Shown here: positions 11,034-19,493 of the stretch, piece after piece | Numbering within the stretch: the first letter of the stretch is position 1 | How the letters are laid out: each line of letters opens with the position of its first letter | NCBI RefSeq assembly: GCF_003569045.1 | Contig: NZ_BFCB01000003.1 | Location: 1,798,001 to 1,862,000 of the forward strand | Origin: Aggregatilinea lenta | GTDB lineage: Bacteria; Chloroflexota; Anaerolineae; Aggregatilineales; Aggregatilineaceae | Direction of reading: 5' to 3' | DNA: 64,000 bases | Program-made: the position numbers and the translations under genes | Notes under the pieces: generated by a model | Database searches by the model: none | Seen by the model: only the letters and a program-made list of their open reading frames with translations | Told to the model about the DNA's origin: nothing

Positions 11034-12092
11034 ATGCGAGCCAGATATCGTCGAATGCTCGCCATCCTCGATGGTGCCCCAACTGGTGCTCGCGGCCAGA
11101 GCCTGGTCGAGCTAACTCTGACCGTGCCGATCCTGTTGGTGATGCTGATGGGGCTGGTCGAGGTGGGCTGGTTCGCCAACAACTATATGGTGCTGCTGGA
11201 CAACGTGCGCGAGGCGGGACGTCGCGGCGCGGTCCTCGATCCGCTCACCGACTGGGAAGCCCATCAGGAAAAGGTCTATCACAGGATGGACTGCGAGAAT
11301 ACCGATCAATATTTCAATACAGGTGCAGGTGACAACGGTATTCTCCGCAACTCGACCGACGGTTGGCCGTGGAAGGATTTAGGCGCGTACGGGTATGTAG
11401 ACGGCACTGAACATACTAGCGCATACGGGTTCTACGACGACGTAGCCTGCCTTATTTTGCGCAATATGGCACCGCTCGACTTTGACAGCACCACTGATGA
11501 CATCATTATCTCGGTGTTTTCCTACGCGGTGATTGACCCGAACCCGACCGACGACGATCCGAGCGACAAAGTCGTCCGCGTGATTGGGCGCTTCCCGCCT
11601 GACACGAACGAATGCTCCGGCGAACCTGATCCATTCGATTGGCGCGGCGCAGGTCTCCTGGATCCTCCCGATGGGGACGCCACTGATGACGGCGAATTTT
11701 ACGAAAGCACCGATGGCAACACACCCTATTACGACGCGACGTCTGACGAGGTGCGCGGCTTTGTGATGCGCGGCAACCACGTGGCCGAAGATGACGCCGT
11801 AGGACTGCCCTGCCTGGGGTCCGATTTTTCGACGGCGGAAGTGCAAAATCTGCTCAACTTCAACAATATCACCGACCCGACGGAACACACCGACAAGATC
11901 GACAACACTCGCAAGTTCGGCATGGTCCTGGTCGAGATGGATTGGAAACACCGGCAACTGTTTGGAATGCCCTGGTTTAATCTTGGCCCGCTGAACAATG
12001 GCCCGTACGTCCACGTGTGGACCTTCTTCCCGGTCTCCGGCGCGGAACTCGATCTCCAGGATGCGGATCTTGACCCAGCGTATTTCCAGTAG
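11034..12092 (+). CDS. TadE-like anchored surface protein
   Basis: A 352-residue protein. After a basic N-terminus comes the TadE-type class III signal and membrane helix 'GQSLVELTLTVPILLVMLMGLVEVG' region (about residues 21-48; in this family the Glu and the hydrophobic helix mimic a type IV pilin start). The remaining 300 residues are extracytoplasmic, rich in Asp, with a few Cys (Cys86 region, Cys143, Cys193, Cys261). Much longer than standard TadE (about 150-200 residues), so this is a TadE-like protein with an added ectodomain rather than a plain minor pilin. GAGGTGAG lies before the ATG. First of three similarly built genes. Confidence 0.8.
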   Translation: MRARYRRMLAILDGAPTGARGQSLVELTLTVPILLVMLMGLVEVGWFANNYMVLLDNVREAGRRGAVLDPLTDWEAHQEKVYHRMDCENTDQYFNTGAGDNGILRNSTDGWPWKDLGAYGYVDGTEHTSAYGFYDDVACLILRNMAPLDFDSTTDDIIISVFSYAVIDPNPTDDDPSDKVVRVIGRFPPDTNECSGEPDPFDWRGAGLLDPPDGDATDDGEFYESTDGNTPYYDATSDEVRGFVMRGNHVAEDDAVGLPCLGSDFSTAEVQNLLNFNNITDPTEHTDKIDNTRKFGMVLVEMDWKHRQLFGMPWFNLGPLNNGPYVHVWTFFPVSGAELDLQDADLDPAYFQ

Positions 12093-12127
12093 GCGGTACA
12101 CCGAGTCCGACAGATAGGTAGACGCTG

Positions 12128-14248
12128 ATGAAGAGCTTAGTATTCCAGAACCCTGTCGCCCGGCGCTTTCGGCGCAGCCAGCGCGGGCAATCGATTGTGC
12201 TGTTGGCGATAGCCTTTCTGGCGCTTATCGCATTTGTGGGACTTGTCACCGATGTGGCGATGATGTTCGTGCGCTACGCGGCGCTGCGTCGTGCGGTGGA
12301 CTCGGCGGCGATCGCGGCTGCCGGGCAGATCCGCGAGGGAACGAACTACGCAGAAGTGACGATGGCCGCCGAGCAGTACATCCAACTGCACGGCATCGAT
12401 CCCGACACGGTGCTCGTCGAAACCTGCGAAACCGACATCTACCAATGGCGCGTGGGCCTAGGGCCGTGGGATGGTGAACCGCACCCGGAAGAGTATGATG
12501 GCACCGGCAACCTTGTTTCGGTCGCGACGCAGATGGGTGAAGACACCGAGCTGTGTAACTGGGATGACCCGCGTAAGCTGGTGCGCGTCAGCGCTCAAAT
12601 CACGTCGCCTACCTCGTTCCTGAGGTTGTTTGGCTTCGACGACTTTATTCTTGAGGCGACGTCGCTGTCTGAGACGGCGGTGCTCGACGTGGCGTTGGTG
12701 ATCGACACGTCCGAGTCGATGTCGAAGTATACGTATCTGCCATCTGCAACTACAGGTGAGACCAGGAACACGATTTACGACGATTCCGGGCTGACGCCCG
12801 ATCAGCTGCCCAGTCGCTGCTTTGGCGGCTATGGCGGATCAAGCCCCTACAAGTACCGTTGGGGCGGCTGTTGTAACGACGTGGGTACGGGTTACGTTGG
12901 TGATGGTTCAGATCAGAGCAACGGCGTTTTCTTGCCCAACGGTTTGCTTTGGCACGATGCGAATGCGAATGGCCTGTATGATCCCGGCGAAGAAGGTGTG
13001 CTGCCCGGCACGATGTCGGACTGGGTGGGATATGACGCGGACCCACGCGCGCCGGAAGAGAAGGCGGAGTATTTCAACTTCACGACCTTGGTTTGCGAGC
13101 CATTCAAGCAAGTAAAGGACGCCGCGCGGCTGTTCATCAAGCGCCTGGACTTTGTGCGCGGCGACCGCGTCGTGTTCGTGACCTTCGACCGCAACGGCAC
13201 GGTCTACGATCCTGACGGCACCGAGAGTACGTTCCGTCCCCTGATCAACAGCGAAAGCGTTGCTATTCAGACACTGAATGAAAAGATTGGTGTGTGGATT
13301 AACCCGAACCAGTGGCAGGACTGGGACCTGTGTCAGGAAGAACTTTCGTCCAAGATGGCATGGGGTAGTTGGACTGACCTGGGGTCGGATCCGGCGACGG
13401 AGCCGGACCTGCGCCCGTACGCCTACGAAAGTATCGCGCCCTGCGGGAACACGAACATCGGCGGCGGTATCCGCAGCGCGGTCAACGCCCTGACGGATCC
13501 CGACGACATCCGACGCGAAGCCGTGTGGGTCATGATCGTGTTGAGCGACGGTGCTGCGAACGCCACCGACCGCAGCGTGGACACCACTGGCTATCCAGGC
13601 ATTGAGGAACGCGTTTACGGTGGCTACGGTTACTGCCCGTGGTGGACCTTCTGCCGTCAGACCATTCCTGCGGGGCAGGAATTCGAGGGCGAACCCTGGC
13701 CGGAGTGTACTGGCAACAACCCGTCGCAGGTCGAGTATTCGGCGCCGGCCTGCAACGACGACCAGTCCGATACGCGTCACTTCTGTCTGGATGCGGATCT
13801 GGAGCAGGAAGTGGGTAACGTGGAATGCGGTCAGTCCGGTCATTACGACGCGGATGACTACGCCCGCGATATGGCGGACTTCGCAGGTTTGATCTCCATT
13901 GCGGATGGTAAGCCCGGTAACTACATCGCCATGTACTCGATCGCCTTCGGTGAGGAAGTGATCAACGCGGCTACCGGTGCGCCGCTGCTGCGCTACATCG
14001 CAGACGCGGGCGACAACGGCATTATCGACAACAATACCGAACAAGATTGGCGTGATGATCGTGCGTTGAACGGGTCGCTGACGGCGGCAGAGCTTGGTGT
14101 GCTGGACCCGTGCACCGACTCGGACACCGGGAACCCGCTCGATCCAACGACACAGTGTGGCCAGTACTACTATGCGACCGACCAGGCAAGCCTGCTGCAT
14201 GTATTCGAGCAAATTGCCAGCCGTATGTTCACCCGCATCTCGCGGTAA
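12128..14248 (+). CDS. TadG-like protein with an extracytoplasmic von Willebrand A domain
   Basis: A 706-residue protein. The N-terminus has 'RGQSIVLLAIAFLALIAFVGLVTDVAMMF' region (one membrane helix, about 20-48) followed by 'YAALRRAVDSAAIAAAGQI', the signature of TadG-type Flp pilus assembly proteins. From about residue 185 a vWA domain begins, with the metal-dependent adhesion site 'DTSESM' (DxSxS) in 'LDVALVIDTSESM'; later 'NIGGGIRSAVNAL' and 'WVMIVLSDGAAN' fit the other MIDAS loops. The vWA domain carries a large Gly/Cys-rich insert (about 235-320). Probably a surface adhesion or assembly factor working with the two flanking TadE-like proteins. Confidence 0.85.
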   Translation: MKSLVFQNPVARRFRRSQRGQSIVLLAIAFLALIAFVGLVTDVAMMFVRYAALRRAVDSAAIAAAGQIREGTNYAEVTMAAEQYIQLHGIDPDTVLVETCETDIYQWRVGLGPWDGEPHPEEYDGTGNLVSVATQMGEDTELCNWDDPRKLVRVSAQITSPTSFLRLFGFDDFILEATSLSETAVLDVALVIDTSESMSKYTYLPSATTGETRNTIYDDSGLTPDQLPSRCFGGYGGSSPYKYRWGGCCNDVGTGYVGDGSDQSNGVFLPNGLLWHDANANGLYDPGEEGVLPGTMSDWVGYDADPRAPEEKAEYFNFTTLVCEPFKQVKDAARLFIKRLDFVRGDRVVFVTFDRNGTVYDPDGTESTFRPLINSESVAIQTLNEKIGVWINPNQWQDWDLCQEELSSKMAWGSWTDLGSDPATEPDLRPYAYESIAPCGNTNIGGGIRSAVNALTDPDDIRREAVWVMIVLSDGAANATDRSVDTTGYPGIEERVYGGYGYCPWWTFCRQTIPAGQEFEGEPWPECTGNNPSQVEYSAPACNDDQSDTRHFCLDADLEQEVGNVECGQSGHYDADDYARDMADFAGLISIADGKPGNYIAMYSIAFGEEVINAATGAPLLRYIADAGDNGIIDNNTEQDWRDDRALNGSLTAAELGVLDPCTDSDTGNPLDPTTQCGQYYYATDQASLLHVFEQIASRMFTRISR

Positions 14249-14289
14249 ACGGCGCGGCGCCAGCGTGTGGTGAGCAAGGGGGACTGAAG

Positions 14290-16977
14290 ATGTACCCGAC
14301 CGAAGAACACAAGGACACGCCAGCTCGGAGCCGCCGTGGTCAGACGATGGCCGAGTTTGCGCTGACGCTGCCAATCCTGCTGATGTTGATGTTTGGCGTC
14401 ATCGAGTTTGCACGCATCTTCCATGCCTGGATTACGCTGCAGAATTCAGCACGTACTGCGGCGCGTTATGCCGTCACCGGCCAGTGGGACGAAGACAGCG
14501 TTGCGGCAGCCATTGGCTATGTCGAAGACGGCAAAACCGGCGAAGAACGTCGGCAGCTAATCCTCGATACGCTTATTCCGTGCACGACCGATCCCGACGC
14601 CCTGTTTACCGCCCACTGGGGGCGCGACTGTGACCCGGCTCAGCAAGAAGACCAGGGCCTGCGCGCAGACCTGGCGCGCCTGCCCTCGATCATCGAGCGC
14701 GCGCGATACGGTGCTCAAGGGTTGGGAATTTCTGACGGCGATCACATTGTCGGACTGACGAATCCGTACACCAGTGCTGATATCAATACTGAGACGGTAG
14801 ACGATAGCTCTAAAGGCTGGTTCCACGTCTGGATGTGCAGTGAGCGCCGCCAGTTGGATGATGACGAACAGCAGCGCTATAAACCAAGTGCGGATCGCAC
14901 CGACCGGATCTGTGAGGTGGTTAACGGCGAGCCAAACAGCGCGAACCAGTATGACGCGGGTGGCCCGGGTGACGCGGTCGAAATCATCGTGTTCTTCAAC
15001 CATCCGCTGATCACGCCGCTGGGGCTGGTGGACTACGTGCCTCTGCAGGCGCGCCGTGTGATGATCAACGAATCGTTTCGTTCGACGCGCGTCGTGAACT
15101 TGCCCGGTAATCTGGTCGGCCCGACGTGGACGGCCAGCCATACGGCGACTGGAACGAGCACGAATACGCTCACCTATACGCCGACTATTACACTGACGCC
15201 ATCGTTTACGCCGAGCATCACCGATACACCCGCATCCCCGACCGCGTCGCCGCTGTGCGAGGATCTCGGCTTCAGGTTGACCGATCCGGTCCAACTGGTA
15301 GGGAACACGCTGCAGGTCGCTGTCACCAACAGCGGTCCCGCGCCATTCTTCCTGTCTGGCGCAACAGTCCAATGGAAACGTATCTCGATATATCCCGATA
15401 TGTACGCCTCCGCTATGCAGTTCGTCGGACGCGCGGCACTGTGGTCCGGGCATGACAGCGGGGGCAGCGATCCCCAGTACGGCACCATCGATATGACCGA
15501 CAACCCGCCCTATCCGTATCAGGCGTGGCTCAGCGGTCCGCCCAACTACGATGAGCGCCGCGTGGAAACCGGCGACACCATATGGCAGATGCGCTTCAGT
15601 AACGGCCCATCCGACCTGAACAGCCGCCTGCGCACTGGCGACTTCGGCGGCACCGTTCTGTACTTCTCGACCGAGTGGGGCGGCGCGACACACGACTGCA
15701 CGCTGCCGTTGACTGACCTGCCGCTGCCGACGTCAACGCCTGAGACACCTCAGCCGACGCCTGCCTGCTCAGACTACGCGCTCACGCTGAACAACTTCCT
15801 GTCCGGTGGCGTCGTGCAGTACCGCGTCCAGAACACCGGCGCGGGCGTGGGTCGCCTGACCGGGTTCTCGGTCAACTGGGATACCTACAACCGTCCGTTC
15901 TTTGACGACAAAAGCTACCTGCTCGACCGGATTAGCGTCGGCGGAACAAGCGCGACTGACTCCAGCGGGATCGTGATGTGGAATGGCACCAATGGTGCCA
16001 GCGATCGCACGCCGCCGGTTGTGGCGAGCACGACATCGGGCACGGGCTGGAATACGGCGGTGGCCCTCAGCCCCGGGGCGGTTGTGAACGTGTGGCTGGT
16101 GTTCACGAACCTGGGCAGCGGCAACACCGACTTCGACAACCTGGGCGTCTTCCGGTCCGACTTCAACGCGACGACCTTCACTTTCGACGAAGATCCGAAC
16201 TGCTCGAGGCAGGTCCTGATCAATACGCCGACGGTAACCTATACGCCGACCAATACCGCTATACCGACCGCGACCCAAGTGCCGGTGGACCTGTGTCCGA
16301 ACATCGACGGCATTCAGGCCACGATCCCACCTGGTATGGTGATCGACAGCAATGGTAACTGCGTGACGGATGCCTGCCCGAATATCATCGGCATTCAGCA
16401 GTCGGTGCCGTCCGGTTACTGGGTGGACAGCAACGGCAACTGCCAGCCGGACGTGTGTCCGAACATCAGCGGCATCCAGCAGTCAATTCCCTCCGGTATG
16501 GTCATCGACAGTGGTGGCAACTGCGTGACGGACGCCTGTCCGAACATCAGCGGCATTCAGCAGTCGGTGCCATCCGGCTACTGGGTAGACAGCAACGGCA
16601 ACTGCCAGCCGGACGTATGCCCGAACATCAGCGGCATCCAGCAGTCGATCCCGTCCGGGATGAGCAAGGACAGCAACGGCAACTGTGTGCCGGACGCATG
16701 CCCAAACATCAGCGGTATCCAATCTTCGGTGCCATCCGGCTACTGGGTGGACAGTAATGGCAACTGCCAGCCAGACGTATGTCCGAACATCAGCGGCGTC
16801 CAGCAGTCGATTCCGTCCGGCATGGTCAAGGACAGCAACGGCAACTGCGTCAGCCCGACGCCGGTCCTGACAAATACGCCGACGAATACGGCGGTCCCGA
16901 CGGACGTGCCGCCGCCAACGCCCGTGCCAACGGAAACGGCGACACGCGCATACACGCCCGAGCACCACGAAGGTTAA
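14290..16977 (+). CDS. TadE-like protein with mucin-like linkers, two beta domains and seven Cys repeats
   Basis: 895 residues from the ATG at 14290, supported by a GGGGG run eight bases upstream; the frame is open further back, but that part overlaps the vWA gene. Order: TadE-type helix 'GQTMAEFALTLPILLMLMFGVIEFA' region (about 19-45); TadE ectodomain to about 275; Thr/Pro/Ser linker (about 278-320); beta-rich domain 1 (about 323-475) and a related domain 2 (about 493-645), each opening with 'CxD' and closing with a late Cys; a second Thr/Pro linker; seven 27-residue repeats 'CPNISGIQQS.PSG...DSNGNC' (about 669-854); a final Thr/Pro tail. A rigid anchored stalk with a disulfide-rich distal part is likely. 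Confidence 0.85.
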   Translation: MYPTEEHKDTPARSRRGQTMAEFALTLPILLMLMFGVIEFARIFHAWITLQNSARTAARYAVTGQWDEDSVAAAIGYVEDGKTGEERRQLILDTLIPCTTDPDALFTAHWGRDCDPAQQEDQGLRADLARLPSIIERARYGAQGLGISDGDHIVGLTNPYTSADINTETVDDSSKGWFHVWMCSERRQLDDDEQQRYKPSADRTDRICEVVNGEPNSANQYDAGGPGDAVEIIVFFNHPLITPLGLVDYVPLQARRVMINESFRSTRVVNLPGNLVGPTWTASHTATGTSTNTLTYTPTITLTPSFTPSITDTPASPTASPLCEDLGFRLTDPVQLVGNTLQVAVTNSGPAPFFLSGATVQWKRISIYPDMYASAMQFVGRAALWSGHDSGGSDPQYGTIDMTDNPPYPYQAWLSGPPNYDERRVETGDTIWQMRFSNGPSDLNSRLRTGDFGGTVLYFSTEWGGATHDCTLPLTDLPLPTSTPETPQPTPACSDYALTLNNFLSGGVVQYRVQNTGAGVGRLTGFSVNWDTYNRPFFDDKSYLLDRISVGGTSATDSSGIVMWNGTNGASDRTPPVVASTTSGTGWNTAVALSPGAVVNVWLVFTNLGSGNTDFDNLGVFRSDFNATTFTFDEDPNCSRQVLINTPTVTYTPTNTAIPTATQVPVDLCPNIDGIQATIPPGMVIDSNGNCVTDACPNIIGIQQSVPSGYWVDSNGNCQPDVCPNISGIQQSIPSGMVIDSGGNCVTDACPNISGIQQSVPSGYWVDSNGNCQPDVCPNISGIQQSIPSGMSKDSNGNCVPDACPNISGIQSSVPSGYWVDSNGNCQPDVCPNISGVQQSIPSGMVKDSNGNCVSPTPVLTNTPTNTAVPTDVPPPTPVPTETATRAYTPEHHEG
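16294..16854 (+). repeat. Seven tandem 81-bp coding repeats (27 residues each, in alternating A/B types)
   Basis: Copies begin at 16294, 16375, 16456, 16537, 16618, 16699 and 16780, exactly 81 bp apart; the last is truncated after its second Cys. Odd copies read '..IPSGM..DSNGNCV.DA' and even copies '..VPSGYWVDSNGNCQPDV', so the true duplication unit is a 162-bp pair. Each copy has Cys at positions 1 and 23. Even copies are nearly identical, which points to recent expansion or gene conversion. Confidence 0.95.
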
Positions 16978-17001: not shown

Positions 17002-17032
17002 AAAGACCCCGGTTACTGACCGGGGTCTTTTT
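17002..17032 (+). terminator. Terminator between convergent genes
   Basis: A perfect 12-bp stem (AAAGACCCCGGT/ACCGGGGTCTTT) with a TACTG loop and a short T-run. It ends the Tad-like cluster and separates it from the leftward DUF2085 gene that ends at 17077. Confidence 0.85.
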
Positions 17033-17867: not shown

Positions 17868-19493
17868 TTAGCTGGTCAGGGTGTCCTTCAGATCCTGCGT
17901 GAGCATGGAGAAGTTCATTTCGCCCACGTAGTAGGCTGCGATTACGCCGTTCTGGTCAATCAGGAAACTGGTGGGGTAGCCCAGGACGCGGTCGCCATAT
18001 ATATCGCCGTTGATCGCGCCGTCCTCGTCCAGCAGCAGCGGGAACGAGATGCCCACGTCATCGGCGAAGTCGGTGATGGTGTCCGCGCTTTCCTGGTTGT
18101 CGACGCCCAACACGACGAAGTTCGGGTCATGGAGTTCGTAGAGGGTCTGGAAGTAGGGCATTTCGCTGCGGCACGGTCCGCACCACGTCGCCCAGAAATT
18201 GACCAGTACGACCTTGCCCCGATAATCGGACAGGGAGACGGTATCACCGTCCACCGTCTCGGTAGTGAAGTCCGGCGCGCGCTGTCCGACTTCAAGTCCG
18301 GTCGGCACATCCTCAGCGTCGATCTCAGGGGCTGCCGGGGCGGCAGTGACGTCGGTGCCGGTATCCATCGCGGTCACGTCACGCGAGGCGGCGATATAAA
18401 AGCTCTCTTTGGTGCCGTCACCGATGCAGGACAGCAGGTTGCCCGGCTGGATATCTCCCTGCACGACGCCCAGCGCGCAGTTTTCCAGGTTGACCGACAG
18501 ATCTGCAAACGAGCTGTTGCCGCTGCCATAGGTCGAGAGGCGCTGTAGCTGCCCGGTGAACACGACCACGCCGATCAGCACCAGGAATGCGCCGCTGACT
18601 GCCTCGATGGTGCGGGTATTGCGCTGCAAGCGGCGGAACAGGCTCTGCGACTGGTTGAGTGCCAGCGCCGTGAGCAGGAACGGAATGCCCAAGCCCAGCG
18701 AATAGGCGAGCATCAGCGGCCCGGCCCGGAGGATCGACTCCAGGCCGCCTGCCGCCGCCGTGATGAGCACCGCGCCGTAGATTGGTCCGATGCACGGCGT
18801 CCAGCCCGCCGAGAACACGACGCCCATGAACAGCGAGTTCATGTAGCTGGCCTGGGCCTTGGGTTGGTTCAGGCGGCGCGTGTCGGCGTACAGGGTCACC
18901 TGGAGCCGCTCGGCGATGCGCGACCAGAACTGGCCGGGCGTGTCGGCTTTGAGCGCGGCGTGGAAGAATTGGAGCAGCACCAGCACAACCACCAGCGTCA
19001 GGAACCACGACTCGACAAACAGCCACCACGTGATGCCGATGAACGCGACGATGATCAGCGCTGAAATCAGGTTGGCGTAGGGATTGCGGTCGAGCCGGGC
19101 GGCGCGGACCTGAAGCCCATTGAGGATGCGCATCAGCAGGCCGCTTACATGCAGCCCGAACAGGATGATCGTCGCGCCGCCGACGCGCGCCAGGCCGTCG
19201 CGTACGTCGCCTTCGGTCACACCGAGCGAGGTCAGCGACGACACCGCCGCCGTGGTCAGCAGCCCGAACAGCACGAAGAAGAGGGTGAACCCAAGCACGA
19301 AGAACAGGCCGTGCACCAGCGTCCCGAAGCGTTGATCGAGCGAGGGACCAGTCGTTTCTCCCTGGGCCTGCCGGGTGACGCGCCCACCCATGTAGCCCAC
19401 GTATGCGGGTACCAGCGGCAGTACGCACGGCGAGACGAATGAGATAAGCCCTGCCAGGAAAGCCAGACCGATAGTTACGTCCGAAGATTCCAC
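17868..19493 (-). CDS. Fused CcdA-type transporter and TlpA/ResA-like thioredoxin
   Basis: 541 residues. The N-terminal half (about 1-300) is a CcdA/DsbD-beta protein that moves reducing power across the membrane: 'FLAGLISFVSPCVLPLVPAYVGYMGG' contains the first active Cys, and 'GVVFSAGWTPCIGPIYGAVL' the second. A region of about 90 residues with two extra Cys follows (near 'LENCALGVVQGD' and 'LLSCIGDG'). The C-terminal domain (about 395-541) is a thioredoxin of the TlpA/ResA/AhpC-TSA group with 'FWATWCGPCRSEMP' at about 432-445 and 'GYPTSFLID' (cis-Pro). The fusion would hand electrons from the cytoplasm to exported thiols, for instance in cytochrome c maturation. GTG start at 19493, with GGAG upstream. 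Confidence 0.9.
   Translation of the reverse strand: MESSDVTIGLAFLAGLISFVSPCVLPLVPAYVGYMGGRVTRQAQGETTGPSLDQRFGTLVHGLFFVLGFTLFFVLFGLLTTAAVSSLTSLGVTEGDVRDGLARVGGATIILFGLHVSGLLMRILNGLQVRAARLDRNPYANLISALIIVAFIGITWWLFVESWFLTLVVVLVLLQFFHAALKADTPGQFWSRIAERLQVTLYADTRRLNQPKAQASYMNSLFMGVVFSAGWTPCIGPIYGAVLITAAAGGLESILRAGPLMLAYSLGLGIPFLLTALALNQSQSLFRRLQRNTRTIEAVSGAFLVLIGVVVFTGQLQRLSTYGSGNSSFADLSVNLENCALGVVQGDIQPGNLLSCIGDGTKESFYIAASRDVTAMDTGTDVTAAPAAPEIDAEDVPTGLEVGQRAPDFTTETVDGDTVSLSDYRGKVVLVNFWATWCGPCRSEMPYFQTLYELHDPNFVVLGVDNQESADTITDFADDVGISFPLLLDEDGAINGDIYGDRVLGYPTSFLIDQNGVIAAYYVGEMNFSMLTQDLKDTLTS

Follow-up and report, generated by a model that had tools for sequence, protein, structure and literature searches.

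A tandem array of two-cysteine repeats on the distal tail of a TadE-family protein of Aggregatilinea lenta, a probable extension of a minor pilin

A stretch of 64,000 nucleotides of the Aggregatilinea lenta genome (further referred to as the window) encodes a TadE-family protein that carries, close to its C-terminus, seven copies of a short cysteine-containing repeat. This raises the questions of what kind of module the repeat is, how the array arose, and what it may do at the end of such a protein. The protein has 895 amino acids and is encoded by an open frame on the forward strand (14290..16977, +), the probable start codon being the ATG at 14290 rather than the GTG that opens the listed frame. 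The TadE domain, which comprises the membrane anchor and a prepilin-like segment, covers residues 17–59 (14338..14466, +; PF07811, E 2e-16) and scores 60.2 bits against a curated cut-off of 22.9, confirming the TadE anchor that the earlier note had assigned to this protein. Prepilin-type motifs have the form G|QxxxE and precede a hydrophobic helix; reading of the sequence gives such a motif at the corresponding place (RRGQTMAEFALTLPILLMLMFGVIEF, G|QTMAE). Two probably beta-rich regions with a Thr/Pro linker between them follow at 15256..16206 (+; approximate limits from reading by eye), and behind the array the protein ends in a Thr/Pro-rich tail of 42 amino acids (16849..16974, +).

The gene is the third and last of a tadE-tadG-tadE trio (11034–16977). 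The first member is a tadE-like minor-pilin gene (11034..12092, +; PF07811, E 2.4e-9), and the second, a tadG-like gene with a von Willebrand A-type region (12128..14248, +), which matches PF13400 (Tad) above the cut-off (E 4.5e-5) and scores slightly below the respective cut-offs for VWA_2 and VWA. A GAF histidine kinase and two response regulators are encoded 5' of the trio. At its other end, an intrinsic-terminator-like hairpin followed by a T run (17002..17030, +; fold energy −24.2 kcal/mol, z −5.1) probably marks the end of the transcript. A convergent gene just downstream (17868–19493, −) has thioredoxin/AhpC-TSA and DsbD_TM matches, and is possibly linked to disulfide formation.

The array occupies positions 16294–16848 (residues 669–853) and consists of seven units of 27 amino acids with the pattern C1...C23, the next cysteine being at position 28. 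The units start at 16294, 16375, 16456, 16537, 16618, 16699 and 16780, in one open frame and with 81-bp steps without exception. Units 1, 3, 5 and 7 are of type A (16294..16362, 16456..16524, 16618..16686 and 16780..16848, all +), and units 2, 4 and 6, of type B (16375..16443, 16537..16605 and 16699..16767, all +). Each of the seven units contains exactly two cysteines. The exact 81-bp spacing of seven copies and the two cysteines per unit reported in the earlier note were thus reproduced. As for the extent of the array, the 162-bp pairs are present, but there are only 3.5 of them, and the last Cys codon ends at 16848, not at 16854 as given earlier. The array had also been placed at the tip of the protein; it is indeed close to the C-terminus, but not at it, because the 42 Thr/Pro-rich residues come after the last unit.

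The best-scoring period reported by Tandem Repeats Finder was 162 bp (3.5 copies, 85% matches, score 748), and the second call had the period of 81 bp with 6.4 copies. Nucleotide identity between units was higher at lag 2 than at lag 1 (84.4% vs 70.1%), and {2,4,6} versus {1,3,5,7} ranked top among all 35 possible 3-versus-4 splits. From these three observations it follows that a two-unit (162-bp) block was duplicated, as had been proposed. Protein identity over 24 amino acids was 92–96% among units 2, 4 and 6 and 75–92% among units 1, 3, 5 and 7, in agreement with the previous description of near-identical even copies and a second type of odd ones. The most alike units, 2 and 4, have 92% DNA identity, and 5 of the 23 codons for their shared residues differ. 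At least one synonymous codon difference is found in every pair of window units; hence the duplications in the window array do not look recent, and, judging by its sequence, the array looks old. Since the most alike units still differ at 8% of 72 bases, a collapsed assembly was considered an unlikely source of the repeats.

Arrays of this kind seem to grow in place, because the nearest units mostly belong to the same protein. In a nearest-neighbour test that took in only units of exactly 23 residues, 46.2 of 85 units of multi-unit loci had their closest unit in the same protein, compared with 6.9 when labels were shuffled (maximum 14.6); for the window units this value was 6.3 of 7. Recent growth is seen elsewhere. 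In a 26-unit array of the same genome, described below, units 3 and 4 have 99% DNA identity. A PKD protein from a relative of the same family (locus L155 of genome G008) has at least seven units in an array that runs off the contig, and its units 3–7, the last one incomplete, have 91–99% DNA identity, which points to recent expansion. As for the suggestion that the copy number is prone to change, the synonymous differences speak against a recent change of length in the window array, while for this class of repeats length change is indicated by near-identical units in the sister array and in the family relative and by seven versus zero units between homologues of the host protein.

The cysteine pattern was studied on 128 units found in the own genome and related loci. 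The search required the core N..Q..P (N3, Q8, P12), with no Cys demanded inside the core, and frames holding at least one C-containing unit. As the loci were partly found by C1 patterns, at least one unit of every frame necessarily had C1, whereas cysteines at positions 22–24 were not enforced. The loci L023 and L024 were dropped from these statistics since their unit-bearing protein is the same as that of L022. All 128 units have a cysteine at position 1. The next one is at positions 22–24 in 124 of the 127 uncut units, and at 13, 27 and 31 in the other three. Given this near-invariance, one disulfide per unit is likely, and this part of the earlier interpretation stands, with the pairing deduced from conservation. 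Among 20 lone units, six are without a further Cys over a range of 25 residues, in keeping with a disulfide inside the unit; these six are not independent, because four of them come from related Saccharibacteria-type proteins. Other conserved positions in the 99 units of 23 residues are G6 (99%), G14 (94%), G21 (91%), D18 (79%), and position 22, which is N or D in 80%. Directly before the units of two further proteins (residues 870–916 of the frame in L047 and residue 752 in L041) we observed 13-residue Cys hairpins CxxGxxx[DN]xx[GN]xC, by appearance a shorter relative of the unit's second half.

The fold of the array was modelled with AlphaFold2 using alignments of the window and related-locus sequences. 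The mean confidence was high both for four units (pLDDT 90.1, pTM 0.62, alignment of 32 rows) and for seven units (pLDDT 89.2, pTM 0.56, 24 rows), and the array is predicted to be ordered. In the seven-unit model, hairpins recur every 27 residues in units 1–6, with strands at unit positions 15–17 and 23–25; unit 7 has shorter bridges only, and the first 20 residues are weaker (73–77). A disordered array was rejected since both predictions are ordered, although, the alignments being made of related sequences, they are not independent of conservation. A disordered predicted fold, which the earlier note would have taken as refuting its reading, is thus not what was obtained; the rigid rod proposed there is no more than a possibility, because the placement of units relative to each other is only moderately confident (pTM 0.56–0.62). 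Fold libraries yielded no clear match to the predicted array. The best Foldseek match in PDB was the insulin-receptor ectodomain (E 0.08), followed by LRP2/megalin; the best match in the viral library had E 0.017, and the best match in the VIA fold search was ErbB4 (Z 2.1, 8.4 Å over 88 residues). Such weak scores do not establish a new fold.

Sequence searches yielded no match of the window array over any Pfam or NCBIfam cut-off and no PDB sequence match. Of the profiles for EGF-like modules, EGF_STAB1-2 scores 12.9 bits against the cut-off of 27, and cEGF, 10.0 against 26.6. When 32 array pieces were considered, cEGF matched eight of them at E ≤ 10 (best 0.0087) and EGF_Tme5, four (best 2.2e-5). 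Pfam with cut-offs was run on ten relatives, among them L022 from a viral contig, where EGF_Tme5 reaches 24.7 bits against the whole-protein cut-off of 22 but no single stretch passes. Similarly, CLIP (PF12032) does not match the window array, and in the 26-unit sister protein it sums to 28.7 bits against the cut-off of 20 with no single passing stretch. In our judgement, both whole-protein passes are sums of weak matches to the cysteine spacing. DUF4215 (PF13948) has no Pfam match in the window array or in its 895-residue protein; the Thrombospondin type 3 repeat (PF02412) does not match the window array and matches two of the 32 pieces (best E 0.092). In PHROGs, which has no cut-offs, the phage family phrog_34628 of unknown function matches 11 of 32 pieces (best E 6e-6), and no match of the array was found in annotated phages. 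Plasmids gave a single match, in Alteromonas (28.8% identity, E 7e-4), at a place for which the gene table, itself incomplete, has no entry; it was not counted as a relative. Literature was searched as well: a text search for motif strings of the unit and searches directed at Saccharibacteria and DUF4215 found no paper on the array, and broad searches returned, among the matches listed, none that dealt with the repeat according to its title or the start of its abstract. In the libraries searched, then, the repeat has no established family of its own; the module is unnamed, whereas the kind of place in which it sits is known.

With the own genome included, the set of relatives comprised 61 genomes, of which 18 belong to the same family and 43 to the rest of the order; the other 60 are all from different genera than the own one. 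The array had a match in five of the 61 genomes (own included), all within the family, and in none of the 43 genomes of the order outside it. Among 400 genomes of the phylum two had a match, the own one and G132 from the same class. A scan of one genome per species (84,980 species) with a strict pattern, whose result is thus a lower bound, yielded 27 loci; by title, 18 are Patescibacteria-type, three are Chloroflexi/Anaerolineales, three Actinomycetota (two of them Demequina), and three unnamed bacteria. The 18 Patescibacteria-type loci support the previous remark that similar repeats occur in candidate-phylum and environmental bacteria. Catalogued viral contigs contributed 13 loci, three of which (L022, L023, L024) encode the same protein. 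Domains in the ten host proteins scanned were PKD, lamin-tail, peptidoglycan-binding, carboxypeptidase-regulatory-like and histidine-kinase; four of the ten had no Pfam match. On a Saccharibacteria contig (L036:5740–7839), four units lie between two hydrophobic stretches and are followed by HisKA/HATPase domains, so that they apparently form the ectodomain of a histidine kinase.

The genome of A. lenta encodes a second such protein (L009:9315–13013), about 48 kb from the window array, in which 26 units precede a PD40/TolB-type propeller. The unit and its Cys spacing are the same. Unlike in the window array, the linkers are 4–9 residues long and partly poly-Pro, the identity is highest at lag 1, and the host protein ends in a propeller. 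The gene is downstream of a frame that, read by eye, resembles an ECF sigma factor. Among 29 other propeller loci, units were found in one (L100); as most of these homologues were covered for no more than about 500 residues upstream, the unit counts are minima.

Matches to at least some stretch of residues 1–667 of the TadE protein were found in 53 of the 61 genomes, own included. We read the C-terminus in 43 non-own homologues, 40 of them complete (L076, L084 and L153 run off the contig or off the stretch taken). None of the 40 complete ones, including all 14 from the same family, contains the unit either by pattern or by profile; over the 43 homologues the unit profile gives the best E of 2.5, compared with 6e-112 for the own protein. 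The alignment extends to residue 600 or beyond in 33 of the 40, and in 32 of the 40 at least half of the last 60 residues are Thr, Pro or Ser. Two complete homologues from the same order, L085 and L086, have DUF4215 in the tail (E 1e-46 and 4e-29), with 33–34 Cys in its repeats. Like the array, DUF4215 is tandem, Cys-rich and located in the same distal tail of a homologous TadE protein; unlike the array, it has the motif CGDG...CDDGN.... DUF4215 was identified with Pfam, run on these two; in the other 38 complete homologues, neither the unit profile nor the CDDG motif gave a match. The domain at the exposed end is therefore variable between homologues, with the array in the own protein only and DUF4215 in two of 40, and the tail appears to be a site at which Cys modules of different kinds were gained or lost. 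In 22 of the 26 best-scoring relatives, a second TadE match is located 2.6–3.0 kb from the homologue of the array gene.

The genome contains two TadE matches, both in the trio. Tad export genes are present in the same genome on another contig (TadA-type T2SSE, two T2SSF, RcpC/CpaB and a TadZ-like receiver-ATPase), not adjacent to the trio; the Flp major pilin has only one weak match in the genome, below the cut-off (E 8.5e-4). Sets of tadEEG are reported in Chloroflexota genomes (PMC7332563). In Myxococcus xanthus, minor-pilin complexes named Kil Tips have been proposed as pilus tips that are interchangeable and differ in their variable domains, a proposal which the authors extend to TadEFG minor pilins (PMC12075869). 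The two systems agree in having three minor-pilin-type genes together and C-terminal domains that vary between homologues, and disulfides are predicted in those tips as well. Here, by contrast, it is a tandem array of an unnamed module that varies, the tad export genes are not adjacent, and pilus assembly and a position at the tip are putative.

The explanation that we favour, and consider moderately probable, is that the array is a bead-like extracellular extension of a TadE-family minor pilin, located on its distal tail and grown by two-unit duplication. Each bead would be a module of about 23 residues closed by a C1–C23 disulfide; its second half would form a beta-hairpin, and a linker of four residues would join it to the next unit. 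Such modules would lengthen the minor pilin at its exposed end, probably at a Tad pilus tip, and may serve as a spacer that presents the tip. The Thr/Pro tail would be an exchangeable slot, filled in relatives with plain Thr/Pro sequence, further domains or another Cys-repeat family, and the array would have grown inside the gene through duplication of the 162-bp block. A disulfide-locked extension of a Tad-tip subunit is suggested by the trio, the export genes and the literature on interchangeable tips, so that the pilus location and the spacer role are what we infer from context.

It is somewhat unlikely, but deserves consideration, that the TadE protein is no pilus subunit but an ordinary surface protein anchored in the membrane, with the array as a stalk above the cell wall. 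The separation of the trio from the export genes and the single weak Flp match point in this direction, as do the more than 800 residues after the anchor, large for a pilin, and the presence of the module in non-pilin secreted proteins. However, two TadE proteins and a TadG-like one are encoded together, the tadE genes stay close in relatives, a prepilin-type motif is present, and the genome has Tad export genes. Also unlikely, in our estimate, is that the array is itself the binding part, its repeated surface of the conserved Asp/Asn/Gly turn and the varying residues 9–10, 13 and 15–17 attaching by avidity to a glycan, to Ca2+ or to a partner protein. The conservation of D18, G21 and N/D at 22 over the 99 units would suit binding, and the four Saccharibacteria units stand before HisKA/HATPase, where sensing or binding is expected. 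Yet PDB sequence and fold searches revealed no relative with a known ligand, D18 is absent from about a fifth of units, and the varying positions differ so widely between proteins that they suit a scaffold equally.

The nature of the unit may also be read differently. An EGF-like module has six cysteines and about 40 residues. The unit shares with cEGF and EGF_Tme5 the hairpin spacing x-P-x-G-Y-x7-C, and the 13-residue spacing of its stretch V-P-x-G-Y-x-x-x-D-x-x-x-C equals that of the C5–C6 hairpin of EGF, so that it could be a degenerate EGF-like domain retaining only the C-terminal hairpin. This spacing, the matches of array pieces to both profiles and the whole-protein EGF_Tme5 score of L022 notwithstanding, we regard such an origin as improbable: the window array is far under the EGF cut-offs, the unit has two Cys instead of six and 27 residues instead of about 40, its first Cys is 10 residues before the place of EGF C5, and the best PDB fold matches are at E 0.08 and Z 2.1. 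A role of the Cys pairs in redox or metal chemistry instead of structural disulfides seems very improbable. The thioredoxin/AhpC-TSA and DsbD_TM-like gene just downstream and the occurrence of the module before a kinase would be in its favour, but that gene is convergent and behind the terminator-like hairpin, cysteines 22 residues apart without a conserved His are unlike a metal site, and lone units keep the pair.

The extension of a minor pilin, if right, would show the tail of a Tad minor pilin to be a slot that takes either the present unit or DUF4215, two different Cys modules, and homologues with and without the array would offer a clean comparison for the effect of pilus-tip length and composition on attachment. 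The repeat would also be a clear target for a new repeat family. Further, we tentatively suggest, at rather low probability, that the unit is an unrecognised and widely exchanged mini-domain of about 23 residues with one disulfide, found in cell-contact proteins of at least three phyla; its hosts would possibly include pilus-tip subunits, a kinase ectodomain, a secreted propeller protein, surface proteins of Patescibacteria and proteins of catalogued viral contigs. Were this true, the tandem copy number would set the reach of the contact part, and recent duplications would make this reach variable.
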